Program-made: the position numbers and the translations under genes
The notes under the pieces: generated by a model
Seen by the model: only the letters and a program-made list of their open reading frames with translations
Database searches by the model: none
Told to the model about the DNA's origin: nothing
Part shown: in pieces, positions 12,328-26,189 of the stretch
Layout of the letters: each line of letters begins with the position of its first letter
How positions within the stretch are numbered: position 1 is the first letter of the stretch
NCBI GenBank assembly: GCA_040218145.1
Contig: JAVJQK010000141.1
Span: 1 to 33,166, forward strand
Source of the DNA: Sandaracinaceae bacterium
Lineage (GTDB): Bacteria > Myxococcota_A > Polyangia > Polyangiales > Sandaracinaceae
Length of the DNA stretch: 33,166 bases
Reading direction: 5' to 3'

Positions 12328-13442
12328 TGGACCTCGATCTCCGCGTGCAGCGCGCCCGCCGTGCGCAGCGCCTGGAAGATGGCGATGAGGTCCCGCGGCC
12401 GGGCGCCGAGCGCGTTGAGCGCGTTGACCACGTCCTGCAGGTTCGCGGCGGGGCCGATGCGCCGGAGCGCGCCGCCCTCGGACTGCACCTCCACGTCGCT
12501 CTGCTCCACCACCGCGGTGTCTCCGTCCGCGAGCGCGTTCGGCTGCGAGACCGCCTGCTGCTCGCGGATCTGCACCGTGAGCCCGCCCTGGGCCACCGCG
12601 ACCTCGCTGATGGTCACGTTCGCGCCGACCACCACCGTGCCCGTGCGCTCGTCGATGACGATCCGCGCGCGGCTCTCCGGATTCACCTCGAGGATCTGGA
12701 GCCGCGCGAGCAGCCCCACGCGGTCCTCCGCGTCGTCGTCGGGCACCGTGATCCGCACCGTGCCCGAGTCGATCGCGCGGGCCGCGCCGTCGCCGAGCTC
12801 CCCGTTGATCGCCTCGGCCACGCGGCGCGCGGTGATGAAGCTGGGCGCGCGGAGCGTGAGCGTCAGCGGCCCCTCGGTGGGCAGCCCGTTGCCGGGCACG
12901 CGCCGCTCCACGATGGCGCCCTCGGGCACGCGGCCGGCCGTGAGGTGATTGCGGCTGACGCTGCTGCCGCTCGCGCCGCTCGCGCCGAAGCCGCCGAGCA
13001 GCACCGCGCCCTGCGCGACCGCGTAGACGTTCCGGTCCGCGCCGTAGAGCGGCACCTGCAGGAGCGTTCCGCCGGCGAGGCTGCGCGCGTTGCCGAGCGA
13101 CGAGACCGTGACGTCGATGTGCGTGCCCGGGTTGGCCGACGCGGGGAGCGTCGCGGTCACCATCACCGCGGCCGCGTTGCGCGTCTGGATCATGCGCGGG
13201 TCGATGGTCGCGCCGAGCCGGCGGAGCATCGCGGCGGTGGACTGCAGCGTGAAGCGCGCCTGGCCCGAATCGCCCGTGTTGTTGAGCCCCACGACGAGCC
13301 CGTAGCCGACCAGCTGGTTCTCGCGGACCCCGTCCACCTCGCAGAGCTCGAGGATGCGGGCCGCGTGCGCGGGCTGCGGCGTGAAGACGGCCAGGGCCAA
13401 GAGCGCGATGGGGAGAATCTTGCGGGACATCATCATGCTCAC
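12324..13442 (-). CDS. flgI: Flagellar P-ring protein FlgI
   Basis: A 372-residue exported protein, the usual FlgI length. Signal peptide ends at PQPAHA, followed by RILELCEVDGVRENQLVGYG and LVVGLNNTGD, the FlgI hallmark; then NAAAVMVTATLPASANPGT and C-terminal LQDVVNALNALGARPRDLIA. It assembles in the periplasm into the P-ring bushing around the rod, with FlgA as chaperone. The frame opens with GTG overlapping the flgH stop (GTGA); three in-frame ATG codons follow within 5 codons, so the exact start is uncertain by a few residues. Confidence 0.95.
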   Translation of the reverse strand: MSMMMSRKILPIALLALAVFTPQPAHAARILELCEVDGVRENQLVGYGLVVGLNNTGDSGQARFTLQSTAAMLRRLGATIDPRMIQTRNAAAVMVTATLPASANPGTHIDVTVSSLGNARSLAGGTLLQVPLYGADRNVYAVAQGAVLLGGFGASGASGSSVSRNHLTAGRVPEGAIVERRVPGNGLPTEGPLTLTLRAPSFITARRVAEAINGELGDGAARAIDSGTVRITVPDDDAEDRVGLLARLQILEVNPESRARIVIDERTGTVVVGANVTISEVAVAQGGLTVQIREQQAVSQPNALADGDTAVVEQSDVEVQSEGGALRRIGPAANLQDVVNALNALGARPRDLIAIFQALRTAGALHAEIEVQ

Positions 13443-14128
13443 ATCGGGTTGACGTGACCGAGGAGCTGCTGCAGCCAGCCGGGGCGCTGGTTCTGCGTCA
13501 GATCGCCGCGGCCCGAGAACTCGATCTCGGCGTCGGCGATCCGGCTCGAGGGCACGGAGTTGTCGGCCTGGATGTCCTGCGGGCGGATGACGCCCGAGAC
13601 GTAGATGTGGAGCTCCTCTGCGTTGATGAGCAGCACCTTCGTGCCCTCGATGAAGAGGTCGCCGTTGGGCAGCACGCGTCGCACGCGCACCGCGATGTCC
13701 GCCTCGATGTTGCTCGAGCGGCTTGTGTTGCCGCTCCCATCGAACTGCGTCGTGCTCATCAGGTTGAGCAGCTGCGAAGGGTCGAGGTCGGGGTATGCGC
13801 CCTGGAGCGCGGCCATCAGCCCGAAGAGCCCGCCGATCCCGAAGTTGAAGTTGCTCTCGCGGTCCATCGAGGTCGACGCGTCGCCGATGGCGCGCGGGTT
13901 CTCGTCCACGCTGATGGTCACGAGATCGCCCACCATGCTCGCGCGGAAGTCGGCGAAGAGCCCACGGCTGCGGTCCTGCCAGAGGCTGCCGCCCGACACG
14001 GGCGTGCTCTCCTCCTCGTAGGGCCCGGGCTCGTACTCCCGATGCCGCGCGGTGTAGTCGCGGATGTGCGACTGCGGATAGCAGCCGGCCAGGATCACGA
14101 GCGAGATCAACGGCGCGAAGCGCTTCAC
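13439..14128 (-). CDS. flgH: Flagellar L-ring lipoprotein FlgH
   Basis: A 229-residue lipoprotein with lipobox LAGC (Cys16). Conserved FlgH features: SLWQDRSRGLFADFRASMVG, DLVTISVDE, VRVRRVLPNGDLFIEG, INAEELHIYVSGVIRPQDI. It forms the outer-membrane L-ring. GTG 14128 has GGAGGTGGTCCC just upstream and overlaps the flgA stop by 4 bases (GTGA). Confidence 0.95.
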   Translation of the reverse strand: MKRFAPLISLVILAGCYPQSHIRDYTARHREYEPGPYEEESTPVSGGSLWQDRSRGLFADFRASMVGDLVTISVDENPRAIGDASTSMDRESNFNFGIGGLFGLMAALQGAYPDLDPSQLLNLMSTTQFDGSGNTSRSSNIEADIAVRVRRVLPNGDLFIEGTKVLLINAEELHIYVSGVIRPQDIQADNSVPSSRIADAEIEFSGRGDLTQNQRPGWLQQLLGHVNPM

Positions 14129-14808
14129 GGGACCACCTCCACGGTGTCGGCGTCGATGACGCGGGCGCGCAGACCGCTCCGCGTCTGAAGGTTCTGGATG
14201 CGGATCACGTCGCCCACCCGCCCGGGCTGGCGCGCGACCCCGGGGGCGCTGGCCTCCACCGCGCCGAAGCGCGCGATCACCCGCACCCGCCGTCCGGGCG
14301 CGATGACAGGGGCGGGACAGGACACGCGGGCTTGCGCCGGTACGCGGACCTCGCGGCCGCCAGCGCGGAGAATGACGACCACCGGCGCGGCGCCCGACGA
14401 GCGCGGCGCCTGCCCTTCGGCCTCCACCTCGAGCGGCCCCTGCGCCACCGACGCGTCCCCGCGGACCGTCAAGTCGTCGACGGTGCAGGGCGCGAGCGCC
14501 TGCCGCACCGCCCCGCGGGACAGCTCCGCCAGCGCTTCCGAGTCCAGCGCGCGCGCCTCCCGGCGAACCCGGGTGGCCCGAGGGATGGCGAGCCCCCGCA
14601 CATCTCGTCCCGCGCGCCGCAGCGCCGCGAGCACCTCGCTCCGGCGCACCACGCGGCTCGCCCCGGGGGGCGGCGCGGCGCCGAGCGGAATCTGACCGAG
14701 CTCGGTCCCGGCGAGGGCGGGGATGACCTCACCGAGCTGGATCTGCTCCTGAGCGAGCGCGAAGCTCGGCACGAGCAGGAGCGTCAGCAGGGCGACGAAG
14801 AAACGCAT
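14125..14808 (-). CDS. flgA: Flagellar P-ring chaperone FlgA
   Basis: A 227-residue exported protein, signal peptide MRFFVALLTLLLVPSFALA. The C-terminal half has the SAF/ChapFlgA pattern: ASRVVRRSEVLAALRRAG, ARVSCPAPVIAPGRRVRVIA, then GRVGDVIRIQNLQTRSGLRA and RVIDADTVEVV. FlgA assists P-ring assembly of FlgI. It is the first gene of the operon. ATG 14808 places the signal peptide directly at the N-terminus; an in-frame GTG at 14820 would add MRRG and cannot be ruled out. Confidence 0.85.
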   Translation of the reverse strand: MRFFVALLTLLLVPSFALAQEQIQLGEVIPALAGTELGQIPLGAAPPPGASRVVRRSEVLAALRRAGRDVRGLAIPRATRVRREARALDSEALAELSRGAVRQALAPCTVDDLTVRGDASVAQGPLEVEAEGQAPRSSGAAPVVVILRAGGREVRVPAQARVSCPAPVIAPGRRVRVIARFGAVEASAPGVARQPGRVGDVIRIQNLQTRSGLRARVIDADTVEVVP

Positions 14809-14820
14809 GCCCCGTCTCAC

Positions 14821-14836
14821 AGCACCGCCCGTGCCA
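14821..14836 (-). promoter_or_regulatory. Possible sigma-54 -24/-12 element before flgA
   Basis: Read on the minus strand the sequence is TGGCACGGGCGGTGCT, which matches the -24 TGGCAC block and has GC in place at -12 with exactly 10 bases between GG and GC. The -12 block is GTGCT rather than TTGCA. Transcription would begin at about 14810, almost on the flgA ATG at 14808, giving a nearly leaderless message. Sigma-54 control of mid-class flagellar operons is common, but this single imperfect match is weak evidence. Confidence 0.25.
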
Positions 14837-14848
14837 CCCGCCTCCCCT

Positions 14849-14862
14849 CCCCGAATTCGGGG
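14849..14862. promoter_or_regulatory. 14-bp perfect palindrome upstream of flgA
   Basis: CCCCGAATTCGGGG is a perfect palindrome 41 bases upstream of the flgA ATG, at the head of the flagellar operon, where an operator could lie. No regulator is identified and nothing else supports the assignment. Confidence 0.3.
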
Positions 14863-14977
14863 CGTTTCGCCCGCGATCCCCCCGATCGTCAGTCATCCCC
14901 CTGGCGATCCGCCGGACCCTTGACGCTCACCGGGGACGGTCTCCCGCGTCCCATTCCCTCCCGGGACCGGAGACAGT

Positions 14978-15064
14978 GGGGACGCTCTTCGTCTTATCGT
15001 CATTGCGGCAACCGCCCGAAATCGCTCCTAATAAACGAATGACGATATGACGAAGAGCGTCCCC
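14978..15064. repeat. Family-1 palindromic repeat, copy 1
   Basis: An 87-bp element whose first 27 bases (GGGGACGCTCTTCGTC, TTATCGTCATT) are the inverse complement of its last 27 (AATGACGATATGACG, AAGAGCGTCCCC) with a single mismatch. The 33-base centre starts with a mini-hairpin GCGGCAACCGC. It is clearly less GC-rich than its surroundings. Copies 1 and 2 are identical, and the identity extends to 113 bases (14972-15084 and 15987-16099). Confidence 0.95.
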
Positions 15065-15087
15065 GCCCTTCCAGCTCCTACGCCTCG

Positions 15088-15207
15088 CGGGACGACGGGT
15101 TCGACTGTCCGACCGCGTTCGCGGCGCTCGAGCTCGACGCGGTGAAGGCCGACATCGAGCGGACTCTCAGCACTTCGCAGGCACTATGGCGGGCGAACGA
15201 TCACGGC
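15088..15207 (+). pseudogene. Fragment resembling the N-terminal part of catalase-peroxidase (KatG)
   Basis: Beginning just after the copy-1 flank, one plus-strand frame reads DDGFDCPTAFAALELDAVKA, then DIERTLSTSQALWRANDHG. This resembles the KatG segment preceding the distal active site (pattern: FDY.E.F..LDL.AvK.Dl...LttSQ.WWPAD.GHYG). The frame loses similarity around 15207, exactly where the minus-strand gene at 15201 ends. There is no start region and nothing of the remaining gene. I read it as a short remnant cut off by recombination. Similarity is by eye from a stretch of about 37 codons, so it is moderate evidence. Confidence 0.45.
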
Positions 15208-15932
15208 ACCCGCTCGAACACTGGCGCTCGCAAACGTCGATTGGGACGAGTCCGGTCGAAGACCCAGCTGTCGCCCCACGCGGCGAGCTCCCGGGCTCGC
15301 GCAACCGAGGCCGAGTCGCTCGCCCAGTCCGTAGACGCTGGGTACAGGACGCGCATCACACCGCCGTCGATGCGTTCCCAGCCCCCAGCGATGAAGTCGA
15401 AGTCAATCGCCTGCACATACGCGGGCCCCAAGAAGTTCGCCCAGTACAGACCTGGAAGCCCGTCCTCCAACCGAACTCCGATTGCGTACGTGCCGTCGTT
15501 CCCTCGGTGCATGTTCGTGGCGGAGAGTTCCCCGTCCCGGCACGCCCGAGCATGGTGACATCGGAACTCGACCACGATGCCGCGCAGGAGCGCGAGGGCG
15601 CGCTCGTCGTACGGTCCACGCCCCTCGAGGTCGATGAGGATCGCGTTGGCTCTCGGGTCTCGGTGAGACGGTGGGGCCCCGAGTAGGTAGACCGTCACGC
15701 CGCTCGTCGCCGAGGGCACCACGAGGACCTCACCGGTCGCGCCAGTGACGCCGAGATCAGACAACGCCTCCTCGGCGCTCATCTCGAAGAGCCAAAGGGG
15801 ATCGTCGTCTTCGTCCTCGGCGAGGCCCACTCTCGAGAACTCAGGAAACACGCCAGACAATACGGCCGACAGGCGAGCGAGCGCCTCGGGTGTCAGGAGC
15901 GCGTCCTGAAAATACGCGGTCAGTTTCAGCAT
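15201..15932 (-). CDS. Unrecognised protein between repeat copies 1 and 2
   Basis: A 243-residue soluble protein without signal peptide or membrane segment. Visible pieces: acidic stretch EDEDDDPLWLFEMS near 40-52, GEVLVVPSATSGVTVYLLGA, a possible Cys/His cluster EFRCHHARACRDGE, and DGLPGLYWANFLGPAYVQAI near 180. The small soluble alpha/beta style with many aromatic residues is like polymorphic-toxin immunity proteins and their relatives, but I recognise no specific family. GAGGT lies 6 bases before ATG 15932. It occupies its repeat interval alone, together with the katG-like fragment. Confidence 0.75.
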   Translation of the reverse strand: MLKLTAYFQDALLTPEALARLSAVLSGVFPEFSRVGLAEDEDDDPLWLFEMSAEEALSDLGVTGATGEVLVVPSATSGVTVYLLGAPPSHRDPRANAILIDLEGRGPYDERALALLRGIVVEFRCHHARACRDGELSATNMHRGNDGTYAIGVRLEDGLPGLYWANFLGPAYVQAIDFDFIAGGWERIDGGVMRVLYPASTDWASDSASVARARELAAWGDSWVFDRTRPNRRLRAPVFERVP

Positions 15933-15992
15933 CAGCTACCTCGAATCGGGCGGAAGACGAGGATCCCCTCCTCGACTGACTGGGGGGACAGT

Positions 15993-16079
15993 GGGGACGC
16001 TCTTCGTCTTATCGTCATTGCGGCAACCGCCCGAAATCGCTCCTAATAAACGAATGACGATATGACGAAGAGCGTCCCC
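15993..16079. repeat. Family-1 palindromic repeat, copy 2
   Basis: Identical in sequence and orientation to copy 1; the identity includes 6 bases on the left and 20 on the right of the 87-bp core. The minus-strand lipoprotein frame at 16043-16258 runs into this copy and stops inside it. Confidence 0.95.
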
Positions 16080-16258
16080 GCCCTTCCAGCTCCTACGCCC
16101 TCGAGGTGGACGTCGTCCGGATCCTCGACCCCGGGCTCCTCGGCCGGCGGCGGCGGCTCGGCCTGCACGACCGGCTCCGGCTCGACCTCCTGGCGACCGC
16201 CACAGGCAGCGAGAGCGGTGAGCGAAAAGGCGATGAAGAGCGTCTGGGACAAACGCAT
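16043..16258 (-). CDS. Small lipoprotein running into repeat copy 2 (probably truncated)
   Basis: A 71-residue frame with a good lipoprotein signal: MRLSQTLFIAFSLTALAAC, lipobox LAAC, followed by GGRQEVEPEPVVQAEPPPPA and EEPGVEDPDDVHLEG, an acidic Pro-rich tether. The last residues (about GTLFVISSFVY) are encoded by the repeat itself, so the original 3' end has been replaced when the repeat arrived. Whether the remaining protein is made is unknown. Start ATG 16258 fits the signal peptide. Confidence 0.55.
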   Translation of the reverse strand: MRLSQTLFIAFSLTALAACGGRQEVEPEPVVQAEPPPPAEEPGVEDPDDVHLEGVGAGRAGTLFVISSFVY

Positions 16259-16524
16259 CGAGCGACCTCGTAGGAAGAGGACGACGGCGCGATCTGCGCC
16301 TCGGAACACGACGTACCACGCCGAGACCCCCGCCAGGCGCTTCCCGAGTCCAACGCAGGCCAGGGCTCCCCCACGACCGCATCCCCATGCCCCTGGAGGC
16401 GGACCTCGAAGAGACGTCTGTGGATTTGTCGCAGTTCGTCCCTGGCCCCGGATCGATGGGCCGACTCACCCCCCTGCCCGATCGGCTTGCGCACCGCACG
16501 GCGTGTGGCATCGTCGCCGCCGCC

Positions 16525-17130
16525 ATGTCCAAGACGCTTTCGACCCTCGTCCCCCTCGCCGCCCTCGTGATCTGCGCCGCTTGCGGAGACCCGCGCGACG
16601 TCCCGTCCTCCCCGTTCGCGGCGCGCTGCGAGTTGCTGTGCGACATCGACGGGACCATGGAGTGTGAGTCCAGCGACGAGCAGGATTGCCTCGCGAACTG
16701 CAACGCTCGCACCGCAGCGCTCCCGCCCAACTGCGGCGCGTGTGTCCTCGACAACAGCTCTGGCCACTCGGGGGAGTGCTTCGACGACGGCACGGGCCCG
16801 GTCTGCGCCTGCTACCGGGCGCGGATCGGCAGGGTCTCAGGCAGCTGCGAGTCCCTCTGTCAGGACATCGTCGCCCCCGTCCCGGTGGAGGCGCGGTGCG
16901 CGCTGCTCTGCTCCGGGACCGGCGAATGCGAGGTCGAGACCGAGGCCTGCCAGGCGAACTGCGTCGCCCGGTTCCAGCCGCTCTCTCCAGGTTGCAGCTC
17001 CTGCCTCCTCGACAACTCGTCGCGACAGTTCGAGGAGTGCGTCGACTTCGGCGACGGCCCCGAGTGCCAATGCCGCGACGCGCTCTTCGCGCGCATCTCC
17101 AGCCCGGAGTGCGAGAGCTTCTGCCAGTAG
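16525..17130 (+). CDS. Cys-rich lipoprotein of two tandem domains
   Basis: A 201-residue exported protein. Leader MSKTLSTLVPLAALVICAAC suggests lipid attachment at the Cys in CAAC (the -3 residue is Cys, so the lipobox is imperfect). The mature protein is two copies of one domain of about 80 residues: CELLCDIDGT..CxxNCNARTAALPPNCG.CVLDNSSGHSGEC..CESLCQ and CALLCSGTGE..CxxNCVARFQPLSPGCSSCLLDNSS..CESFCQ. Conserved Cys spacing implies disulfides. An in-frame upstream extension to 16387 has no signal peptide, so ATG 16525 is preferred. Function unknown. Confidence 0.75.
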   Translation: MSKTLSTLVPLAALVICAACGDPRDVPSSPFAARCELLCDIDGTMECESSDEQDCLANCNARTAALPPNCGACVLDNSSGHSGECFDDGTGPVCACYRARIGRVSGSCESLCQDIVAPVPVEARCALLCSGTGECEVETEACQANCVARFQPLSPGCSSCLLDNSSRQFEECVDFGDGPECQCRDALFARISSPECESFCQ

Positions 17131-17267
17131 CTCGGCGGGCCCCGGCCGCGCTTCACGAGCCGGAGCTCGACCCTGGACAGGCCCTCGCCCTCGAGGCGGG
17201 TCCACGTCGACGTCTCCGATCGCGCTGGACCTGGGCAGCGGAGCGGCGACCGTCTACGATACTGCCC

Positions 17268-17597
17268 ATGGGACACCTTCGCGGTCTGGTCTTCTTGAAC
17301 CTCTTCTTCGGACTCGCGAACGTGCTCTCCATCTGCCTGGTGCCCGCGCTGATGATGAACGGCCGGGACGACGGAGTGCTCGACGAGCTCTCGACCCTCG
17401 CGATCACTCCACTGATGCTGCTGCTGGGCGTCGCGCACCTCTACATCGCGCGGCAGATGCATCGGCGGACCACGCGCTTGCCGCAGACGCTGCTGGCCGT
17501 GCTCTACCTGGCGGCCTTCCCGGTGGGCACGATCTTCGGCGCCTACGCGCTGTGGGTGATCTGGTCCAACGACGAGAGCGCCGAGGCGTTCTCGTGA
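17268..17597 (+). CDS. Small integral membrane protein
   Basis: A 109-residue protein with about three hydrophobic helices: LVFLNLFFGLANVLSICLV (near 6-25), LAITPLMLLLGVAHLYIA (near 43-61) and LLAVLYLAAFPVGTIFGAYA (near 75-95), connected by charged loops (MMNGRDDGVLDEL and RQMHRRTTRLP). No known domain recognised. ATG 17268 starts the first hydrophobic segment; I see no strong ribosome-binding site. Confidence 0.65.
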   Translation: MGHLRGLVFLNLFFGLANVLSICLVPALMMNGRDDGVLDELSTLAITPLMLLLGVAHLYIARQMHRRTTRLPQTLLAVLYLAAFPVGTIFGAYALWVIWSNDESAEAFS

Positions 17598-17680
17598 CGG
17601 TCGGTGCCCTCACGCGCCGTCCAGGGCCAGGTTGACCACGGACTCCTCGCGGTGACCCAGGGCCGCCCCGCTGGCGACGG

Positions 17681-17884
17681 CGTTTCCGCGGAGACGCTTC
17701 AGGGGGTGCGCCAGGGCTCCTGAGCTCCGCCCGCAGAGCTCGACGAATGATGGGATCGTCCCTGTCGTTCCGGCGCCGCGCCGCCGACGGCGTATCCGCG
17801 GAGACGCTCCGGGGTGGTGCGCCGGGGCTCCGGAGCCTCGCCCCGCGGAGTTTGACGAATGAATGGGTTCGTCCCCGTCGTTCC
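17681..17884 (+). repeat. Family-2 repeat, tandem dimer A
   Basis: Two related units of about 100 bases, starting at 17681 and 17791. Each opens with CGTTTCCGCGGAGACG or CGTATCCGCGGAGACG (one mismatch from a 16-bp palindrome), passes a GGGCTCC-rich middle and ends with GACGAATGA and a GTCCC(C/T)GTCGTTCC block. The dimer is almost identical to the one at 19099-19304. It fills most of the 335-base gap 17598-17932 and ends 48 bases before the stop of the next minus-strand gene. Confidence 0.9.
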
Positions 17885-17932
17885 ACAGCTCGAAGACGCG
17901 TCCCGCCGGCGCGAAAGGCGGCTGGGACTCTC

Positions 17933-18835
17933 CTAGATGTCGGGGACGCAGACGTATCGGTGCCGGGAATCTACCCGGGTGTCGACGCACTGGTGGCCCT
18001 CCCGGCATTCGCCCCGCATGGGGTTTCCTCGCGCGTCGAAGTCCGTGCAGCCGTAGCGGCACCAGTACAAGCCGCGGTCCGGGTCGCCATAACATCCGGC
18101 GTGCGAGAACGAGCAATCCACGCTGTTCTCACCCTCTCGGCAGAGACGCGCGCAGCGTCCTCCCACGCTGGTCTCCTCGCAGAAGCGACAGGTGCCATCA
18201 CCAGGCGTACACGGCGTCCATTCTCTGGCTTCGCACACTCCGATGTTCGGCTCGTCCCACGAGTAGCGGGTGAGAGCGGTGCACGATTCACTCTCGCACT
18301 CGCTCGGGCGCGTGCACGGCTCGCCGAGAGCGCGGGGCGCGATGCAGGTAGCATCCGCGAACGAGCAAATCCCGCTCGCACAGCGTTCATCGGTTTCACA
18401 GGCGTCGCCGATCGCGAAGAGAGGCGCACACGCGTCCGCGTCTTCGTCGCAGTACTCGCCGTCCGGACACTCGCAGCGGGCGATGGTGTGACAGCCCCTC
18501 CCGGCTCCACCCGCACAGCTCACGTATCGACCTTCGGCGCAGGCGAGGTAGACGTCATCGTGGGCGAAGTCGCCCGACCGGTCCTGCGGAAAGTAGTCCC
18601 CGCTGGAACACGCCGGGAGGCAGACGCGAGAGCCATCGACGGCCGCGGGCGTGCAAACACTGCCACCCGGGCAATCGGCATCATCGCCGCACTCGGATGC
18701 GCAGAACGCTGCGCTCGTAGACTCGCCAAAGCACGCGGAGTCAGGGCCGCAGCCCCCCTGGCTCGAGCAACGCTCCCGCGATTCGCACGCGACAGCGAGA
18801 CAGAGAATCGCAAGTCCTAAACAAGAGTACTTCAT
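17933..18835 (-). CDS. Cys-rich lipoprotein
   Basis: A 300-residue secreted protein. Leader MKYSCLGLAILCLAVACES gives a lipoprotein-like cleavage before Cys17. The rest is densely Cys-rich in pairs typical of myxobacterial adhesin-like or EGF-like modules: CSSQGGCGPDSACF, CASECGDDADCPGGSVC, CECPDGEYCDEDADAC, CETDERCASGICSF, CTRPSECESESC, CRFCEETSVGGRCARLC. No catalytic domain. Likely an outer-surface protein. The in-frame extension to 18883 adds non-signal sequence, so ATG 18835 is chosen. GC is visibly lower than in the flagellar operon. Confidence 0.75.
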   Translation of the reverse strand: MKYSCLGLAILCLAVACESRERCSSQGGCGPDSACFGESTSAAFCASECGDDADCPGGSVCTPAAVDGSRVCLPACSSGDYFPQDRSGDFAHDDVYLACAEGRYVSCAGGAGRGCHTIARCECPDGEYCDEDADACAPLFAIGDACETDERCASGICSFADATCIAPRALGEPCTRPSECESESCTALTRYSWDEPNIGVCEAREWTPCTPGDGTCRFCEETSVGGRCARLCREGENSVDCSFSHAGCYGDPDRGLYWCRYGCTDFDARGNPMRGECREGHQCVDTRVDSRHRYVCVPDI

Positions 18836-18913
18836 CGCGTCGAACCTACATGATCGGAGCGAGAATGAGAACAGACTCGACATACGCGTGCAATGCGCAT
18901 GGCGGACGCCCCG

Positions 18914-18948
18914 TTCGACGAGTGAATGGGCGCCCCGTTCGTTCCGGC
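18914..18948 (+). repeat. Partial family-2 repeat
   Basis: TTCGACGAGTGAATGGG followed by CGCCCCGTTCGTTCCGG resembles the right end of the family-2 unit (GACGAATGAATGGG, CGTCCCCGTCGTTCC). The left half of the unit is absent. It lies between the lipoprotein start codon and family-1 copy 3. Confidence 0.5.
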
Positions 18949-18980
18949 CGTCTCCCTGCCCTCGCGGGCGCTCGAGCAGC

Positions 18981-19067
18981 GGGGACGCTCATCGTCTCAT
19001 CGTCATTGCGGCAACCGCTCGAAATCGCTTCTCATTGACGAATGACGATATGACGAAGAGCGTCCCC
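18981..19067. repeat. Family-1 palindromic repeat, copy 3
   Basis: 87 bases, same orientation as copies 1 and 2. It differs from them at T to A at position 11, T to C at position 18 and several bases in the centre; the last 29 bases are identical. Preceded by GAGCAGC, as in copies 4 and 5. It is part of the 487-base gene-free gap 18836-19322, which otherwise holds only family-2 sequences. Confidence 0.95.
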
Positions 19068-19098
19068 GCATTTTCCCCGCCGCCAGCCCGGCCGATGA

Positions 19099-19304
19099 CG
19101 TCTCCGCGGAGACGCTTCAGCGGGTGCGCCAGGGCTCCTGAGCTCCGCCCGCAGAGCTCGACGAATGATGGGATCGTCCCTGTCGTTCCGGCGCCGCGCC
19201 GCCGACCGCGTCTCCGCGGAGACGCTCCGGGGTGGTGCGCCGGGGCTCCGGAGTCTTGCCCCCCGCGGAGTTTGACGAATGAATAGGATCGTCCCCGTCG
19301 TTCC
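19099..19304 (+). repeat. Family-2 repeat, tandem dimer B
   Basis: Two units with perfect 16-bp palindromes CGTCTCCGCGGAGACG at 19099-19114 and 19209-19224. The dimer matches 17681-17884 nearly base for base, so a block of about 205 bases has been copied. Its right end lies 18 bases before the stop codon of the minus-strand gene at 19323. Confidence 0.9.
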
Positions 19305-19322
19305 GGTGGACGATCCACCCCA

Positions 19323-19907
19323 TCAACCCGAGCTCACCTCACCGCGCCAGCGGTCCAGCTGCTCGCGACCGACGCCCGCCAGGTGTCCGTACGCCCAGGC
19401 GCCGTCGGGACGTCGGACGAACCCCGCGTACCAGGCCTCCTGCTCCTCATCCCGGAGGGTCACGACCATCATCGACGCGCGGCCGTTCACGCGGCTGCCC
19501 CCGCTGACCCACACGAACGCGGCGTCTCCTGAGCGCGCGCGCAGGGGCCGATCCAGGTTCGCCTGGCTCCACATCTCGCGATGCAGCAGCCGCGCGTCCG
19601 CGACCGGCACGTACCGCCCGTCGTTCAGCGCGAACCGTCGCTCCGACTCCACCCGCTTCGGCACGAACGGCGGGATCACCAGCGCCTTCTTCTTCGTCAC
19701 GTCTCGGTGAACGGACACGAGCCCCAGATACGTGTTCCCCGCGAATCCCAGCCAGCGAGGCCCGAACCAGTTGTCGACCTCGACCACGAACAGATCCTCG
19801 GGCCGCATCGCGCTGACGATCCCGTCGACCAGCGCGCCCGCGAGCGACACGAACGCCTCGTCATCCCCCTCCCGTGGGCCGAGGTCCGGAACCAGCCGCG
19901 TCGCCAT
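19323..19907 (-). CDS. Unrecognised protein between repeat copies 3 and 4
   Basis: A 194-residue soluble protein starting MATRLVPDLGPREGDDEAFV. Noticeable pieces are LFVVEVDNWFGPRWLGFAGN, LVSVHRDVTKKKALVIPPFV, PKRVESERRF, FVWVSGGSRVNGRASMMVVT and EAWYAGFVRRPDGAWAYGHL. No signal peptide or membrane segment. I do not recognise a family. GTG at 19922 is an alternative start five codons upstream; neither has a clear ribosome-binding site. It sits alone in its repeat interval. Confidence 0.65.
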   Translation of the reverse strand: MATRLVPDLGPREGDDEAFVSLAGALVDGIVSAMRPEDLFVVEVDNWFGPRWLGFAGNTYLGLVSVHRDVTKKKALVIPPFVPKRVESERRFALNDGRYVPVADARLLHREMWSQANLDRPLRARSGDAAFVWVSGGSRVNGRASMMVVTLRDEEQEAWYAGFVRRPDGAWAYGHLAGVGREQLDRWRGEVSSG

Positions 19908-19951
19908 GCTGTGGAATAGCACGCCAAGCTCAGCGCCCGCCGCTGAGCAGC

Positions 19952-20038
19952 GGGGACGCTCGTCGTCTTATCGTCATTGCGGCAACCGCTCGAGATCGCT
20001 CCTAATAGACGAATGACGATATGACGAAGAGCGTCCCC
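19952..20038. repeat. Family-1 palindromic repeat, copy 4
   Basis: 87 bases, same orientation. Position 11 is G here (T in copies 1-2, A in copies 3 and 5-7). Preceded by CGCTGAGCAGC. The last 29 bases are identical to all other copies. Between it and the Imm5-like start codon at 20121 one frame reads DDDAPPEATRRVYEGIPW before a stop, possibly the tail of a lost gene. Confidence 0.95.
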
Positions 20039-20120
20039 GCCCTACTCGCCAGCGATGACGACGCTCCGCCCGAGGCTACTCGGCGGGTCTACGAGGGCAT
20101 CCCCTGGTAGTGGAGGATAT

Positions 20121-20750
20121 ATGCATGCGGAACTTTCGGAGGCTATCCGTCGAGCTCGGACTGAGGTGTTACAAGCTGACTCTGGCCACTTGGAGCTTAC
20201 ATTTCGGGATCAAATCTGGGCAGCTATGGGACCCTATGAGATGGCGCCGGGGAACCGTGCTGTCCGGTGCCCAGGCCTCATTCGACGGACCCGATTATGC
20301 GTACTCTGTGTGCAGCGAGTCCTGCCCATATTCTCGAGCGTGCGCCAGGCAGCCAACGAAACGCTCGTGCGTCTGGACGACGAGCCGGGCGCGCTGATGG
20401 AGTTTGTGCAGGAATACCTGGAAGGCCGGTACTCCTGGGACGAAGCGTGGAGCCGGTCGATGAGTTTCGTGACTATGCTTCAGCACGATTACGAATTGAT
20501 GGCGGACCACGTCCGAGCTGCTCTCGTGCTGCATGCGAGTGGAGCTGCGCTAGGAACTGCTCTCAAAGACATGGGAGAGTACGGAGGGGCTACTCTGGAC
20601 CGTGACCTGGATGCCTGGGATGCGGATGCGTATGCGTGCTGGGCTGAAGTGGGTGTCGAGCCCTGGAAGCCAAGCGGGGCCGTGCAGCGACGTACCTTCT
20701 GGATTTGGTACCTCGACAACGCTGTTCCGGCCGCGTTTGAGTCAGCCTAG
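20121..20750 (+). CDS. Imm5-like immunity protein
   Basis: A 209-residue, mostly helical soluble protein. The segments FRDQIWAAMGPYEMAPGNRA, LCVLCVQRVLPIFSS, LMEFVQEYLEGRYSWDEAW, and the C-terminal WDADAYACWAEVGVEPWK and AVQRRTFWIWYLDNAVPAAF match, as I recall it, the Imm5 family of polymorphic-toxin immunity proteins, including the terminal RR.FW.WYL..AVP motif. Such proteins neutralise a cognate toxin domain; no toxin gene is adjacent, so it is an orphan here. GGAGG lies 4 bases before ATG 20121. GC is visibly lower than in the rest of the window, suggesting transfer. It is the only plus-strand gene between copies 3 and 7. Confidence 0.7.
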   Translation: MHAELSEAIRRARTEVLQADSGHLELTFRDQIWAAMGPYEMAPGNRAVRCPGLIRRTRLCVLCVQRVLPIFSSVRQAANETLVRLDDEPGALMEFVQEYLEGRYSWDEAWSRSMSFVTMLQHDYELMADHVRAALVLHASGAALGTALKDMGEYGGATLDRDLDAWDADAYACWAEVGVEPWKPSGAVQRRTFWIWYLDNAVPAAFESA

Positions 20751-20919
20751 AACATGTTTCCAGGACGATGACAGACCGTGGCACTGATGGTGCTACAGTC
20801 GAACCATCTGAAGTCCACATAAGACTACGCGCCGCCGGCCCCTCAACCCTCTAGCCATGCCGAGCGACTTCAATGCGTCGAAGAATCAACTCACAGTGGG
20901 CCGCTCGCCGCTGAGCAGC

Positions 20920-20998
20920 GGGGACGCTCATCGTCATTGCGGCGACCGCTCGAGATCGCTCCTCATAGACGAATGACGATATGACGAAGAGCGTCCCC
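20920..20998. repeat. Family-1 palindromic repeat, copy 5 (8-bp deletion)
   Basis: 79 bases: the left arm lacks 8 bases (CTTATCGT) relative to the other copies, so the inner part of the stem cannot pair, whereas the right 29 bases are intact. Its right end lies only 3 bases before the stop codon of the gene at 21002. Confidence 0.93.
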
Positions 20999-21001
20999 GT
21001 C

Positions 21002-21796
21002 CTACTCTTGCAGGGCTCGACCGACGGCGAACTCAGCCAGGAAGTCCGCTACGGCGTCGTTGGGTAGAGGTGAGCCGGCTTCGCTGTCAGGAGACGAGCG
21101 AACGACGGTCGCTCCTCCCTCGGAGCACCGGAGCGTCACCACCTCGCCGCGGTAGTTCTCGACCTCGACGAACCCGTCCGACCCGGGTTCGCGAAGGGCC
21201 CGCGCGCTGAACCTGGATACGAATGGAAGCTCCATGATGGAGCGCTTGCGGAACGGATGAGTCGTTTCTCCATCGGCCCCGCGCCCCCTCATCTTCAGGA
21301 CCGGAAACAGCTGCCGGCTGCACGACGGCCGGAGGGAGGGGAGATTCCGGTAGTACCACTTGCCCCCGTACCTTTGTTCGCTCGTCCACACCTCACAGGG
21401 GTGGACGGGCTGCAGGATCCAGGTCGTCTCGAGGGGCAGCTCATAGAACATGTGGTGAACGCCATGGCCTATACAGAGCCATGACTCGAAGCGCCCACAG
21501 ATCGGCGCGAACCCGACGCTATCCACCGGTACGACACACACCCTCCTCCCGGCGACGAGGTCCAGGATCGCGGCTGCCCCCGTCGGGGTCACGAGCTCGG
21601 CCCATTGACTCTCGTCCTCATAGTCTTCTGCGAGAACGCTGCCCGACGCGCACCACACGAAGCGGCGCCGTGCGTCCAGCTCGTGTGAACGCGACTCGAG
21701 GAAGCCGTCACCTGTGCTCACCTCCTCGGCGTAGTCTTCGAGGACCACACGGAGCCCTCGCATCTCGGCGTTCTGGTCAGTCACGGTGATCTCCAT
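21002..21796 (-). CDS. Unrecognised protein between repeat copies 5 and 6
   Basis: A 264-residue soluble protein, start MEITVTDQNAEMRGLRVVLE, no signal peptide. Visible pieces: WCASGSVLAEDYEDESQWAE, FESWLCIGHGVHHMFYELPL, EVWTSEQRYGGKWYYRNLPS, and a C-terminal part with GFVEVENYRGEVVTLRC. The last 45 residues could be a small separate domain. No family recognised; composition is in keeping with the immunity-like neighbours, but that is only context. A GGGGGAG site precedes ATG 21796. Confidence 0.75.
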   Translation of the reverse strand: MEITVTDQNAEMRGLRVVLEDYAEEVSTGDGFLESRSHELDARRRFVWCASGSVLAEDYEDESQWAELVTPTGAAAILDLVAGRRVCVVPVDSVGFAPICGRFESWLCIGHGVHHMFYELPLETTWILQPVHPCEVWTSEQRYGGKWYYRNLPSLRPSCSRQLFPVLKMRGRGADGETTHPFRKRSIMELPFVSRFSARALREPGSDGFVEVENYRGEVVTLRCSEGGATVVRSSPDSEAGSPLPNDAVADFLAEFAVGRALQE

Positions 21797-21810
21797 CCGG
21801 CTCCCCCCGC

Positions 21811-21890
21811 CGCTTCGGGGACGATCCTACTTCGTTGTCGAGCTCGCCGGCCTCGGTGTTCAGCCGACGCCGCGTCAACGCAGCCGTCGC
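21811..21890 (-). repeat. Family-2 repeat, inverted copy C
   Basis: CGCTTCGGGGACGATCC, then TTGTCGAGCTCGCCGGCC and CAGCCGACGCCGCGTCAACG, form the reverse complement of the right part of a family-2 unit (GAGCTCGACGAATG, GATCGTCCC). The same block recurs at 22888-22966. It starts 15 bases upstream of the start codon of the minus-strand gene 21002-21796. Confidence 0.7.
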
Positions 21891-21915
21891 TCGCTGAGCA
21901 GGGGGGATGAGCAGG

Positions 21916-22002
21916 GGGGACGCTCATCGTCTTATCGTCATTGCGGCAACCGCTCGAAATCGCTCGTCATGGGCGAATGACGATATGACGAAGAGCGTCC
22001 CC
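21916..22002. repeat. Family-1 palindromic repeat, copy 6
   Basis: 87 bases, same orientation. The centre differs (CGCTCGTCATGGGCG). The flank GAGCAGGGGGGA is duplicated immediately to the left. Right end is 39 bases before the stop of the DUF1963 gene. Confidence 0.95.
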
Positions 22003-22041
22003 GTCCTTTCCCCGTCTATGCCGTTTCCCGCACCTCGCTCT

Positions 22042-22794
22042 CTACCCCGAGTCGGCTGCGAGCTCAGACAGGTCGCCCACGCGCAGCCGGTCGCGTCGAC
22101 CGAACACGTGGAGAGGGCCCCCGTCGTGCCACCACAGCTCCAGCGAGTCGACCGTGTCGAGGGAGAGCAACGGGGTCCACTCGGGCCCGGGCGTGGGGTC
22201 GTATGCGAGCGTGCTGACCGCCGGGTAGCCCAGCAGGTAGCCCCAGCGCGCCGCCACCGTCGCCCGTTCTCGTTCGCGCCACCATTCGACGAGCGCGCCC
22301 GCGAGCTCCGGGGAGGGCCAGTCCGTCCGCTGACACGCGTCGTGCGGGAGATCCATGCCGACCTCGAAGCGCAGCGCGTGCGCATCACCCCCTCGTGTGG
22401 CCCCGGTCGGAGGCGCGACCGTCTGCAGACCGTTGTGGTCCCGTAGGTACAGGGCGTGCACGTAGTTGGGATCTTGCCAGAAGAGCTCCGTCTCCTCGTC
22501 GTCCGCAACGAAGAAGGCGACGAGCCCCTCACGCGGAAGCGCATCGATGCGCGCAGGGAGCTCCGCGAGGTTCACCTGCAGAAGGAATCGGTAGGGGCCA
22601 CCCGGATGGCAGGGCCAGGTCGCGCCGCGCGGGAGGTCTGCCGCGCCCCCTCCGATCCGGCTCCGGCCGAGCGACGCTGGCATGCTGGAGGGGAGCAGCT
22701 CCACGCGCGGTCGGCTCACTGCGGCGACGTAGTTCCGGTGGGCGCCGACGATGGCCGCCCGCTCGAGGGCGACGTCCAGCTCATCCAAGTTCAT
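22042..22794 (-). CDS. DUF1963 (YwqG-like) protein
   Basis: A 250-residue soluble protein. The motifs SRIGGGAADLPRGATWPCHP, GGPYRFLLQVNLAELPA, EGLVAFFVADDEE and the later WGYLLGYPAVSTLAYDPTPG are those of the DUF1963/YwqG family (normally GG.P.LP....WP....G....fl.QinL.e.p..LP..G.L.fF.d). Biochemical function of the family is unknown; members are often found among polymorphic-toxin and accessory loci. It lies alone between copies 6 and 7. GAGGACC precedes ATG 22794 closely. Confidence 0.82.
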   Translation of the reverse strand: MNLDELDVALERAAIVGAHRNYVAAVSRPRVELLPSSMPASLGRSRIGGGAADLPRGATWPCHPGGPYRFLLQVNLAELPARIDALPREGLVAFFVADDEETELFWQDPNYVHALYLRDHNGLQTVAPPTGATRGGDAHALRFEVGMDLPHDACQRTDWPSPELAGALVEWWRERERATVAARWGYLLGYPAVSTLAYDPTPGPEWTPLLSLDTVDSLELWWHDGGPLHVFGRRDRLRVGDLSELAADSG

Positions 22795-22887
22795 GGTCCT
22801 CGTCCGAAGGAGAAGTAGAGCTCATCGTCCACGCCCAGGTCCACCCACGACGGCGATCACCCGGCGCCAGGAGCGGGCTCCCGTCGG

Positions 22888-22966
22888 CGCTTCGGGGACG
22901 ATCCCATTCATCGTCGAGCTCGCCGGCCCCGGTTCACAGCCGACGCCGCGTCAACGCTTCCGTCGC
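22888..22966 (-). repeat. Family-2 repeat, inverted copy D
   Basis: Same block as 21811-21890 (CGCTTCGGGGACGATCCCAT, TCGTCGAGCTCGCCGGCCCC, GCCGACGCCGCGTCAACGC). It lies upstream of the DUF1963 start. The 513-base gap 22795-23307 contains this copy, the plus-orientation family-2 pieces at 23026-23095 and family-1 copy 7, and no gene. Confidence 0.7.
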
Positions 22967-23025
22967 AGGGGAGGTGAGCGAAAACGGCCCGATCCTCTCA
23001 TGTCTCGCGTCGGCAGCCACCCCGA

Positions 23026-23095
23026 AGCTCGACGAACGAACCGGATCGTCCCCTGCGCGCCACCGCCGACGGCGTTTCCGCGGAGACGCTTCAGG
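23026..23095 (+). repeat. Family-2 repeat pieces next to copy 7
   Basis: AGCTCGACGAACGAACC and GGATCGTCCCC (right end of a unit) at 23026-23053 are followed at 23073 by CGTTTCCGCGGAGACGCTTC, the left end of the next unit, which is interrupted 20 bases later by family-1 copy 7. Confidence 0.75.
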
Positions 23096-23115
23096 GGCTG
23101 CGCTCGCTGAGCAGG

Positions 23116-23202
23116 GGGGACGCTCATCGTCTTATCGTCATTGCGGCAACCGCTCGAAATCGCTCCCAATAGACGAATGACGATATGACGAAGAGCGTCC
23201 CC
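23116..23202. repeat. Family-1 palindromic repeat, copy 7
   Basis: 87 bases, same orientation, with the left-arm A at position 11 and CCAATAGACG in the centre. It interrupts a family-2 unit and is the last copy; the HNH gene begins 105 bases to its right. Confidence 0.95.
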
Positions 23203-23307
23203 GTCCTTTCCTCGGCGGCGTGTGGTCCGACGGCTGACGCCGACGTGGGATCCCTCGATGGCGTCATCTATATTTTCGATAGGACAGGCGCTCGACGTTG
23301 TGCCACC

Positions 23308-24819
23308 ATGCTGCTCATGCGTACAGAGCAGGTTTTCGACCCATCCTCCACGCACCCGCCGCCTGCGCGTCGGCGCGAGGACATCGAGCGCGAGCTGGCC
23401 GAGCTGTCGGCGCAGGTGGACGCGGCGAAGCACCGGCAGCTGATGCTCATTCACGAGGCGGACGTGGAGGGCTGCTGGGCGCACACCGGCGCGCGCTCGT
23501 GCGTCGACTGGCTCGGCTGGCGCATCGGCATGACGGCGGGCACGGCGCGCGAGCACCTGCGCGTGGCCCGCGCGCTGAAGAAGCTGCCGCTCATCGACGC
23601 CGAGATGGAGCGAGGCAAGCTGAGCTACTCCAAGGTCCGCGCGCTGACCCGCGTCGCCACCCCCGAGAACGAAGAGACGCTCTCGGACATGGCGCTCAAC
23701 AGCACCGCGGCGATGCTCGAGAGGATCTGTCGCGGGGTCAAGCTCGCCAGCCGCGACGAGGACGGCGAGCTGATCGCGGCGCCCGAGCCCGAGCGCTGGG
23801 TCAACAGCCGCTGGGAGGGCGACGGCATGACGCGGGTGACCGCGGTGCTCAGCGCGGACGAAGCGGAGCTGCTCATGGAGACGCTGCGCTCGGTGCGCGA
23901 GACGATGAAGAGCGACGAGAGCGAGGCGGAGCCGAGCCTGGCCGACGCGCTGGTCCACGTGGCCGAGCAGGCCGCCACCGAGAAGAAGGTGCAAGAGGCG
24001 CAGACCCGCACCACCGGCGGCGACGCGCAGATGGTCGTGCTGCACCTCCGCGAGTCGATGCTCGGCGACGGCGTCGTGACCCAGCTCGAGGATGGCTCGC
24101 GCGTCTCCGCGGAGACGTTTCGGCGCGTGGCCTGCGACGCCTCGCTGCTCCCGGTCCTGGAGGGCGGGCTGGGCCAGGTCCTGAACGTCGGCCGCAAGAC
24201 GCGCAGCATCCCGCCCGCCGTCCGCCGCGCGGTCGAGGCGAAGCACGGTCGCTGCTGCAGCTTCCCCGGTTGCACGAGCACGCGCTTCATCCACTTCCAT
24301 CACGTCCAGCACTGGGCCCACGGCGGCGAGACGAGCGCCAGGAACCTCCTGCCGCTCTGCTCCTTCCATCACCGGCTCGTGCACGAGGGCGGCTGGACGG
24401 TGCAGTACGACGGCGTCGGCGCGCCCGAGTTCCGCCAGCCGCAAGGCTCGCCGCTCCCGCCCTGGATGACCATGCCCTCCACCCCGCCCGACGTCATCGA
24501 GCGGATGCGAGAGGCGCACGCCGTCTTCGACATCGACGAGGACACGGGCCTCTGCGACTGGGACGGCCACCCGCTCGACCTCTACGCCTGCGTCGACGCC
24601 GTGTGTCCCATCGAAGACCGCCCCTTCAGCGCGGCCGAGTACTACGCCGAGCACGGCTTCGGCACCGAGCGCGCGGACGCGTCCGAGACCCCCGCCGAGG
24701 CGCTGCAGATCCTCGAGCGCATGATCGCGCAGAGCGGCATGGCCGACGGCGAGCGCGCGCGGCGGCTCAGAGAGAGGCTCCGCGAGCGAGCCCGCGAGGC
24801 CACCGCCCTTCAGCACTGA
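23308..24819 (+). CDS. DUF222-HNH endonuclease-like protein
   Basis: A 503-residue protein of the large DUF222/HNH (13E12-type) family. Residues about 25-290 are DUF222: helical, with AHTGARSCVDWLGWRIGMTA, REHLRVARALKKLP, GKLSYSKVRALTRVATPE and SRVSAETFRRVACDASLL. The HNH domain at about 305-362 has GRCCSFPGCTS (Cys317, Cys322), FHHVQHWAHGG (His331, His332), NLLPLCSFHH (Asn346, His354, His355) and VHEGGW (His359), so metal- and catalytic-residue positions are kept. DNA cleavage is expected but the family's biological role is unknown. ATG 23308 starts the conserved part; ATG 23317 is an alternative. Codons 265-270 contain the 16-bp palindrome CGTCTCCGCGGAGACG found in family-2 repeats. Confidence 0.85.
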   Translation: MLLMRTEQVFDPSSTHPPPARRREDIERELAELSAQVDAAKHRQLMLIHEADVEGCWAHTGARSCVDWLGWRIGMTAGTAREHLRVARALKKLPLIDAEMERGKLSYSKVRALTRVATPENEETLSDMALNSTAAMLERICRGVKLASRDEDGELIAAPEPERWVNSRWEGDGMTRVTAVLSADEAELLMETLRSVRETMKSDESEAEPSLADALVHVAEQAATEKKVQEAQTRTTGGDAQMVVLHLRESMLGDGVVTQLEDGSRVSAETFRRVACDASLLPVLEGGLGQVLNVGRKTRSIPPAVRRAVEAKHGRCCSFPGCTSTRFIHFHHVQHWAHGGETSARNLLPLCSFHHRLVHEGGWTVQYDGVGAPEFRQPQGSPLPPWMTMPSTPPDVIERMREAHAVFDIDEDTGLCDWDGHPLDLYACVDAVCPIEDRPFSAAEYYAEHGFGTERADASETPAEALQILERMIAQSGMADGERARRLRERLRERAREATALQH

Positions 24820-24880
24820 CGCGACCCGACCACCGCGCGAGAGGGAGACCAGGCGAGCGCGCTCGTAGGTCAGGGGTGAC

Positions 24881-25234
24881 GTGCTCGACCCCCCGCGCGA
24901 CGGCTCTCGGTTCCTCTGCGCCTCGGCCTTCGTCGCCGCGACGCTCATCGCCGCGGTGGGCCACGCCCGCGTGCCCGTCGCCCCGGAAGCGCGCGCGCTG
25001 CAAGCCCGACTGAGCCGCTGCTGGGACCAGGCCGAGGCCGAGGCGCCGACCATCGTGCGCTACGAGGTCGTCGTCGAGGTCCGCGGCGCGCGCGCCCGGT
25101 CGGTCACCGTCGAAGGCCCCGACCTCGCTCAGCTGAGGCCCTGTCTACGAGCGGCGCTGCGCCGCCACGCGTGGCCGGACGGCGCGCACCGCGTGGCCTT
25201 CCCGCTCGTGTTCGCACGTCGCACGGATCGCTGA
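24881..25234 (+). CDS. Small exported protein resembling AgmX/TonB C-terminal domains
   Basis: A 117-residue protein with an N-terminal hydrophobic segment (FLCASAFVAATLIAAVGHA), probably a signal peptide. The remainder, ALQARLSRCWDQAEAEAP, then VRYEVVVEVRGARARSVTVE, LRPCLRAALRRHAWPDG and HRVAFPLVFARR, has the two-Cys pattern (C...x.y.v.v...G.v..v.v......L..C....l....fP......v..PlvF) of the domain at the end of myxobacterial AgmX/PglI and TonB-like proteins. By itself the domain gives no precise function. Start is GTG 24881 behind AGGGGTGAC. Confidence 0.55.
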   Translation: MLDPPRDGSRFLCASAFVAATLIAAVGHARVPVAPEARALQARLSRCWDQAEAEAPTIVRYEVVVEVRGARARSVTVEGPDLAQLRPCLRAALRRHAWPDGAHRVAFPLVFARRTDR

Positions 25235-25259
25235 CGGCGCTCCGGTGATCATCCGTCCC

Positions 25260-25646
25260 CGAGCCTCGGGCCCCGAGTCCAACCGCCGGGTCGCGGGCGG
25301 CGTTCCCGCGGAAACGTATCAGGTGGGTAGGATCGCCCCTGGGTCGCCCCGCTCCGGGGACGATTCGTCCCAAAGACTCGGGCCCCGAGTCCGACCGCCC
25401 GGTCGCTGACGGCGTTCCCGCGGAGACGTTTCACCGGCGCGCCACGCTTCGGGGGACGGGCCCTACCCAGCTACCCGAGCTCGACGAGGTCCGGGCCCGG
25501 ACTCGGATTCCGCGGCCGGAGTTTGACGAATGAATAGGATCGTCCCCATCCCCGTAGCGGCCCCGCGGAGACGTTTCAGCTGCGGGGGACGACCCTGGGC
25601 TCCGGAGTCCGCGGCCGGAGTTTGACGAATGAATATGATCGTCCCC
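25260..25646 (+). repeat. Cluster of divergent family-2 units
   Basis: The 416-base gap 25235-25650 consists of at least four decayed family-2 units. Left-end motifs occur at 25301 (CGTTCCCGCGGAAACG), 25413 (CGTTCCCGCGGAGACG) and 25562 (CCCGCGGAGACGTTTCAG); right-end motifs GGAGTTTGACGAATGAAT plus GATCGTCCCC occur at 25518-25547 and 25617-25646. A block with CTCGGGCCCCGAGTCC is repeated at about 25265 and 25378. The last right end is 4 bases from the stop codon of the gene at 25651. Confidence 0.8.
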
Positions 25647-25650
25647 GAGG

Positions 25651-25992: not shown

Positions 25993-26189
25993 GCTGCCTC
26001 CAGTCCGCCATTCGTCCCCCGAACGGCGCGCGGACGCTATCGGGGCATGCCCCACAGAGGCGGATCGAGCCCGCGCCTGGAGACCATCGAAGCAGACAGT
26101 GTGGTGCCTTGGAGGTGCGAAAGCCCATTTCCGCCCTCCGACGTTGTTACTCTGCGTGAGCGGTGGGGTTGGAGGGGGAGACCGGGGGG

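Follow-up and report, generated by a model that had tools for sequence, protein, structure and literature searches.

Integrons are the textbook route to an oriented chromosomal bank of exchangeable single genes, and genes of the toxin-antitoxin (TA), immunity, and orphan types are the kind met in large chromosomal cassette arrays. Conserved flanking genes, and not a repeat, are what defines a minimal mobile element; such elements, palindromic repeat families, and stem-loop-bounded phage cassettes are all already known. Here we describe a 33,166-nucleotide (nt) stretch, the whole of which we call the window (contig JAVJQK010000141.1 of assembly GCA_040218145.1, from an uncultured marine myxobacterium of the Sandaracinaceae), in which seven copies of a long palindrome, family-1, lie head to tail around genes that vary between two genomes of the species. 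As far as we have searched, chromosomal arrays in which long palindromes of one orientation delimit single genes that vary between strains appear to be undescribed.

The terminal inverted repeats (TIRs) of tyrosine transposases resembling the repetitive extragenic palindrome (REP)-associated tyrosine transposases (RAYTs), known as TIRtrons or TIRYT, are long and in some cases wholly self-complementary, several start with GGGGWSAS, and they form dimers and clusters (Di Nocera et al. 2013, PMC3733652). TnpA-REP cuts 5' and 3' close to its hairpin, and the Escherichia coli group requires unpaired stem bases (PMC8266576). With moderate confidence, we favor family-1 as a REP/TIR-type palindrome family whose direct-repeat arrays are the recombination boundaries of a hypervariable gene locus, a reading that covers repeat-bounded turnover together with a share for an unspecified enzyme.

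Family-1 palindromes in the window

The seven copies point the same way, judging by their asymmetric core and by a T-T mismatch conserved between positions 17 and 71, and are located as follows.

14978-15064, + strand, family-1 palindrome r1, 87 nt; same as r2 over 113 nt including flanks
15993-16079, + strand, family-1 palindrome r2, 87 nt
18981-19067, + strand, family-1 palindrome r3, 87 nt
19952-20038, + strand, family-1 palindrome r4, 87 nt
20920-20998, + strand, family-1 palindrome r5, 79 nt, left arm short by 8 nt
21916-22002, + strand, family-1 palindrome r6, 87 nt
23116-23202, + strand, family-1 palindrome r7, 87 nt

An initial annotation, made by a model from the letters alone, had claimed seven repeats in a single orientation amid genes on both strands. 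Its starts and start-to-start spacings (1015, 2988, 971, 968, 996, and 1200 bases) are exact, six copies being 87 nt and one 79 nt; all seven are on the + strand, and the array genes lie on both strands.

The arms (GGGGACGCTCTTCGTCTTATCGTCATT and AATGACGATATGACGAAGAGCGTCCCC) are 27 nt each, the consensus stem is perfect except for the T-T mismatch, and the element consists of inverted repeats lacking coding capacity, as do miniature inverted-repeat transposable elements (MITEs). All seven copies fold as hairpins, with z scores of -5.8 to -9.2 relative to dinucleotide shuffles and none of 200 shuffles equaling them. A search of the window against Rfam gave no matches, and compensatory base changes, looked for as a sign of a structured RNA, are no more common than in shuffles and give that reading no support. 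What is conserved in the arms is the sequence, including columns 10-11 and 77-78, at which pairing is lost.

Distribution of family-1 in the host genome

The genome holding the window (G000; contigs carry C numbers) is 11.06 Mb, and the second genome of the species is the metagenome-assembled genome (MAG) Sandaracinaceae MED-G138 (G077), which is 84% complete. Searching with a pattern and with a covariance model built from 26 copies recovers ~47 family-1 copies in G000; a reversed-pattern control over the whole genome gave no matches, versus 97 for the true arm. Seven copies are on the window contig, 10 are in one C80 array, and groups of 2 to 6 are on nine more contigs, such that ~30 neighbors lie within 4 kb of each other versus 0.8 expected at random placement, and 28 of 30 neighbor pairs point in the same direction (p ~4e-7). 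The initial annotation had named as contrary to its proposal a genome-wide scatter in random orientation with no link to variable genes; the copies are instead clustered, head to tail, and located at strain-variable segments.

In addition to arrays, this partly self-complementary family forms copy pairs 110 to 210 bp apart. The 87-nt length is constant while the 33-nt core varies by subtype, and the window subtype is nearly confined to the window array. Flanks are kept within subtypes over ~6 to 14 nt on the 5' side and 2 to 20 nt on the 3' side, and the repeated unit is therefore ~110 nt. Duplication of the unit is directly visible at C49, C80, and C713. Two further palindrome families with GGGGACG/CGTCCCC ends are involved in the strain differences in the same manner as family-1.

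Some copies are composite or incomplete. Composites that pair a family-3 left arm with a family-2 right arm occur every ~1 to 2 kb at C80:39225-43057, extending the C80 array. At 3840-3866 of locus L036 (G000 C71), a palindrome severed precisely where its left arm meets the core is followed by a complete copy, and the G077 copy is intact there. At 1489-2017 of L041 (G000 C35), three solitary right arms form tandem 200- to 300-bp units beside an apparent IS630-like transposase gene, a putative family assignment.

Turnover of the window array between strains

The array lies between flanks shared with G077 at 99.2% (8396-14927; 6.5 kb) and 97.4% (25585-31264; 5.7 kb), and intervals between repeats turn over between the two genomes, with junctions at unit edges. 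To the left of the first repeat, G077 has a different 981-bp segment, and a 243-amino-acid (aa) gene and one repeat are missing between shared blocks. Window stretches of 1306 and 1677 bp have no G077 counterpart, the 1677 bp that include r3 being represented by 25 bp. The strains switch 5 bp past r4, and the DNA to the right of the matching G077 repeat differs; that repeat keeps r4's left neighbor and has a core of the r6 type. These are whole-gene differences between conserved flanks within a species, as in minimal mobile elements. The initial annotation had raised the prospect that genes between copies vary among strains while the repeats stay, and across these two genomes they do, with most repeats persisting. 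The features concerned are as follows.

14928-25584, no strand, strain-variable region; only 16390-17625, 19303-20043, and the repeats align to G077
15201-15932, - strand, single gene between r1 and r2, 243 aa, no Pfam match; absent from G077 between shared blocks
16390-17625, + strand, segment in common with G077 (C289:7673-8906), small Cys-rich protein and small membrane protein
17626-19302, no strand, segment with 25 bp in its place in G077; r3, two family-2 elements, and a Cys-rich protein gene (17933-18883, - strand)
17848-17876, + strand, family-2 right arm (...GACGAATGAATGGGTTCGTCCCC)
19268-19296, + strand, family-2 right arm, 7 bp beyond which the variable segment ends
19323-19907, - strand, single gene between r3 and r4, 194 aa, 97% identity in G077
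20055-20750, + strand, single gene between r4 and r5, Imm5 immunity-type protein (Pfam Imm5, E 3e-22)
21002-21796, - strand, single gene between r5 and r6, 264 aa, no Pfam match, stop codon 4 bp from r5
22042-22794, - strand, single gene between r6 and r7, DUF1963 (Pfam, E 4e-16)
23308-24819, + strand, DUF222-HNH endonuclease-like gene to the right of r7
25519-25547, + strand, family-2 right arm, close to the right border of the variable region
25618-25646, + strand, family-2 right arm; G077 homology restarts at 25585, 33 bp away

Five of the six intervals between repeats are single-gene (928, 884, 881, 917, and 1113 bp) and the 2901-bp interval holds three genes, in keeping with the intervals of about 1 kb with one gene each that had been claimed; of the genes there, among which two had been read as immunity-type, one matches Imm5 and one DUF1963. 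The Imm5, DUF1963, and HNH genes are not elsewhere in the G077 assembly; their absence from the G077 locus is not claimed, because the array there is broken by a contig end.

It is very unlikely that the strain differences are artifacts of assembling ~100-bp repeats from metagenomes. Many contigs do end at repeats, and assemblers can collapse or skip such repeats, but many junctions are in unique DNA with no repeat in one genome (C289 6532 and 8906/8932; the left end of C138; C122 11089; C23/C97), where collapse is unable to act. Window-specific genes are also not present elsewhere in G077, apart from a 67% homolog of one.

Other loci and the position of junctions

Similar differences are seen at other repeat loci. 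At C71/C277 the two genomes retain both repeats with different DNA in between, 1.9 kb with a gene for a 384-aa protein of no assigned family versus 1.4 kb with a GAF-cyclase gene. At C138 there is a 1397-bp insertion ending 14 to 16 bp before a repeat that is identical in both strains, and C80/C223 differs in several places, one of them a 963-bp insertion whose start immediately follows a palindrome and whose end lies in another. At C122/C27, G077 carries a 3.16-kb insertion with an 18-bp direct duplication, its end lying 16 bp past a repeat, and the site is empty in G000. G077 C223 also has paralogous genes in tandem, separated by a repeat, and hybrid or replaced repeats are evident at r4/r6 and C80/C223. 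Junctions lie on both sides of the repeats, at +2 to +16 and -9 to -16. When segments were looked for again at other repeat loci, only a 167-bp piece common to two G077 arrays turned up.

The compared loci were selected for holding repeats, with their own flanks as the control. Large-indel breakpoints are within 50 bp of an arm in 22 of 45 cases, versus 4.7% of aligned positions. Intergenic positions are a fairer null because the repeats are intergenic, and with these alone 19 of 33 breakpoints are within 50 bp of an arm versus 21% expected (nominal p ~5e-6), reducing the enrichment from tenfold to 2.7-fold.

This reduction is in accord with the palindromes being passive markers, which pile up in the intergenic DNA of a region turning over by other means (transformation, islands) and do not cause breaks, an alternative that we consider doubtful. 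Passive palindromes would look like borders because nearly every intergenic gap there holds one, and some indels have no nearby palindrome (C122b, 1576 bp; C80, 889 bp; C130, 466 bp). The array also has a lower GC content (67.8% over 14928-25584) than both flanks (~72.6%). However, junctions fall within 1 to 20 bp of unit edges at many independent sites, and neither the near-uniform orientation (28 of 30) nor the array-restricted subtypes are expected of random landing.

A proposed mode of turnover

On the reading that the arrays are recombination boundaries, family-1 would be a species-specific REP/TIR-type element of 87 nt (~110 nt with flanks) that spreads mainly locally, and local copying of the unit and of gene-plus-repeat stretches would thereby give rise to head-to-tail arrays. 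The arrays would sit in hypervariable accessory-gene regions with the repeats as preferred points of breaking and joining, and gene-sized segments between or beside them would be lost, gained, or replaced while most repeats persist; direct orientation is what repeat-repeat recombination would need for segment loss. We infer that the repeats are recombination sites and that they cause the junctions by direct-repeat recombination, possibly with nicking by an HUH (RAYT-like) enzyme at the hairpin edge, and segments presumably come in from other cells. Given that TnpA-REP cuts near hairpins and, in the E. coli group, needs unpaired stem bases, it is reasonable, if unproved, to add an HUH enzyme that acts in trans.

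Several points weigh against this reading. About half of the junctions have no recognized palindrome at the other end, where a search for overlooked palindromes gave nothing consistent, and pure repeat-repeat recombination is therefore insufficient; these one-ended junctions and two strain switches just 5' of a repeat are unexplained by recombination alone. The lower enrichment with the intergenic null counts in the same direction, as does the non-independence of breakpoints, the p values being optimistic because breakpoints are paired and share history and because block ends can run through a repeat. Both assemblies are fragmented and the G077 array is interrupted by a contig gap, and no transposase gene is flanked by family-1 in either strain genome.

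The switches just 5' of a repeat (two informative cases, C289 9581 and C223r 23605) are in accord with a site-specific cassette platform unrelated to integrons, in which an undescribed enzyme reads the single-stranded 87-nt hairpin and moves gene-plus-repeat units, cutting at the edges. The strict length and conserved T-T mismatch while the core varies, insertions that stop at a repeat edge, whether or not they include the repeat, and the single-gene content of TA, immunity, and orphan types are also consistent with such a platform. We nonetheless think it quite unlikely, as no candidate enzyme is linked to the arrays, the junctions are on both sides at varying distances rather than at one base, and no moved unit is found at a second site in the compared loci. 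If it were true, oriented arrays of TA, immunity, and orphan genes would be built by it in a myxobacterial chromosome.

Gene content

The variable segments code for Imm5 (two instances, each in another array and strain), DUF1963, DMP19, AbiEi/AbiEii, HIT, and pRiA4 ORF-3-like proteins, together with pentapeptide repeats, AAA proteins, a cyclase, lipoproteins, and many proteins with no Pfam match. Gene calls come from a simple codon-score script rather than a standard gene finder, and PADLOC matched no defense models among the window genes. At the flgA locus in other genera, where the ancestral order was sought, neither the array genes nor the right neighbors are present.

No homolog of the DUF222-HNH gene is present at the other repeat loci or in what is assembled of G077. 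In noncoding window DNA, short GCGTTTCCGCGGAGACGC palindromes (17664, 17774, 19082, 19192, 23056, 25284, and 25396) resemble the stretch inside this gene, at 24085, that encodes its RVSAET motif.

At 47-370 (- strand) and 600-820 the window has small multicopy genes of the 23S rRNA-intervening-sequence/four-helix-bundle family (PF05635), which are also on G000 C49, C41, C33, C63, C67, and C89, beside G+C-rich hexamer tandem repeats. At six sites a family-1 palindrome lies within ~0.3 to 1.2 kb of a PF05635 gene, and the two are possibly one mobile unit.

Relatives and transposase genes

The exact arm pattern, searched for in 84,980 GTDB species genomes, matches only the MAG Sandaracinaceae bacterium MED-G138, plus one Acetobacter genome, the latter probably by chance. 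Palindromes with the same plan and other sequences (GGGGACGATCCTCGTC..., GGGGACGCTCTGCGTC..., and GGGACGATCGTCGTC...) are in three genomes of the same family or order among 77 related genomes searched, mostly at one copy per contig, and a fourth genome has a single copy. A literature search on palindromes in this genus found nothing.

RAYT-type genes flanked by GGGGAC terminal repeats are present in two of these relatives, with one such gene in each study strain, although the sequences differ; those of this species are flanked by GGGGACGGTGTT... repeats. In both strains the repeats at the Y1_Tnp genes are GGGGAC repeats other than family-1. A cognate RAYT was sought in the G000, sister, and four more genomes, and RAYT/IS200 genes were found, none flanked by family-1; a parent transposon from which family-1 might derive as a MITE was likewise not found, and the one candidate for a target-site duplication is the 18-bp direct duplication at C122/C27.

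At one chromosomal place (L049, G000 C3:8482; L131, G077 C4:8352) the strains have different RAYT-type genes and different GGGGACGGTGTT... terminal repeats, the transposase cassette itself thus having been swapped. At L079 (contig C124 of genome G004), an IS200-type gene adjoins half an arm of the related G004 palindrome, as if an insertion sequence had landed in it.

Comparison with known systems

Integron cassette arrays are like the window array in layout and in gene turnover between strains. The single-gene array, the palindromic separators, and the one orientation all suggest a chromosomal integron or a cluster of attC sites lacking an integrase (CALIN), and strain-variable single-gene segments lie between the repeats as cassettes do, in support of the cassette-array resemblance that had been claimed. 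However, attC core sites (RYYYAAC...GTTRRRY) are in none of 53 repeats, with 20-nt flanks included and on both strands, and of the genome's five tyrosine recombinases, which include XerC and XerD, none exceeds the TIGR02249 cut-off for integron integrases, the best scoring 135 versus 265 bits. The initial annotation had likewise seen no integrase and no attC-like ends. With both tested defining features lacking, an integron is excluded and either form retains next to no probability; the array further differs from those of integrons in its mixed gene orientation and in having junctions on both sides of the repeat.

As a whole, the initial interpretation is supported in part, as to cassette-like behavior and a REP/MITE-like element; gene accretion driven by the repeat itself, like any circular intermediate, is conjectural. 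The alternative it had offered, an element of the REP/MITE kind around mobile genes, is backed by the GGGGACG termini, the T-T mismatch, the local duplications of units, and the parallel to TIR repeats. A palindrome-based gene bank of this kind, if true, would be a second route besides integrons, and raises a testable general question of whether abundant bacterial palindromic repeats are bystanders or organizers of gene turnover. In uncultured Myxococcota, the repeat borders can also be used to locate accessory, TA, and immunity-type genes.

With its GGGGACG ends, family-1 resembles the TIRtron repeats, and the RAYT-type genes of this species bear GGGGAC terminal repeats as in PMC3733652. The ends read GGGGACGC, one base off GGGGWSAS, with GGGGACAG just upstream of r2, and the ~47 copies are dispersed and partly self-complementary, with dimers and clusters, as are TIRtron repeats. 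Unlike TIRtrons, family-1 flanks no transposase gene in either genome.

Like REPs, their bacterial interspersed mosaic elements (BIMEs), and TnpA-REP (PMC2817692, PMC8266576), family-1 is an extragenic hairpin family, and cleavage by TnpA-REP with its need for unpaired bases is a possible parallel to the edge junctions and the T-T mismatch. REPs are, however, 20 to 40 nt with stems of at most ~13 bp and a GTAG/CGTC tag, in contrast to 87 nt, 27-nt arms, and no tag rule. A CGTC-tagged REP, a candidate because family-1 ends in CGTCCCC, is ruled out by the 8- to 9-bp stems of CGTC REPs. Head-to-tail pairs are described as absent or rare among GTAG/CGTC REPs, whereas family-1 forms head-to-tail arrays around single variable genes.

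The minimal mobile elements of Neisseria, as outlined by Saunders and Snyder (2002; cited in PMC2649163), place different whole genes at the same site within one species with no resident integrase, as here. Natural transformation and homologous recombination are the mode of exchange expected of such elements. Unlike in those elements, the borders of the window array are marked by a palindrome family that forms arrays. The promoter-stem-loop (PeSL) cassettes of T4-type phages (Arbiol et al. 2010, as summarized in PMC4503421) similarly have dense intergenic stem-loops in gene-shuffling regions, for which modular exchange is proposed; in that summary they are regulatory cassettes of phages, whereas the window array is in a bacterial chromosome and built on an 87-nt element.

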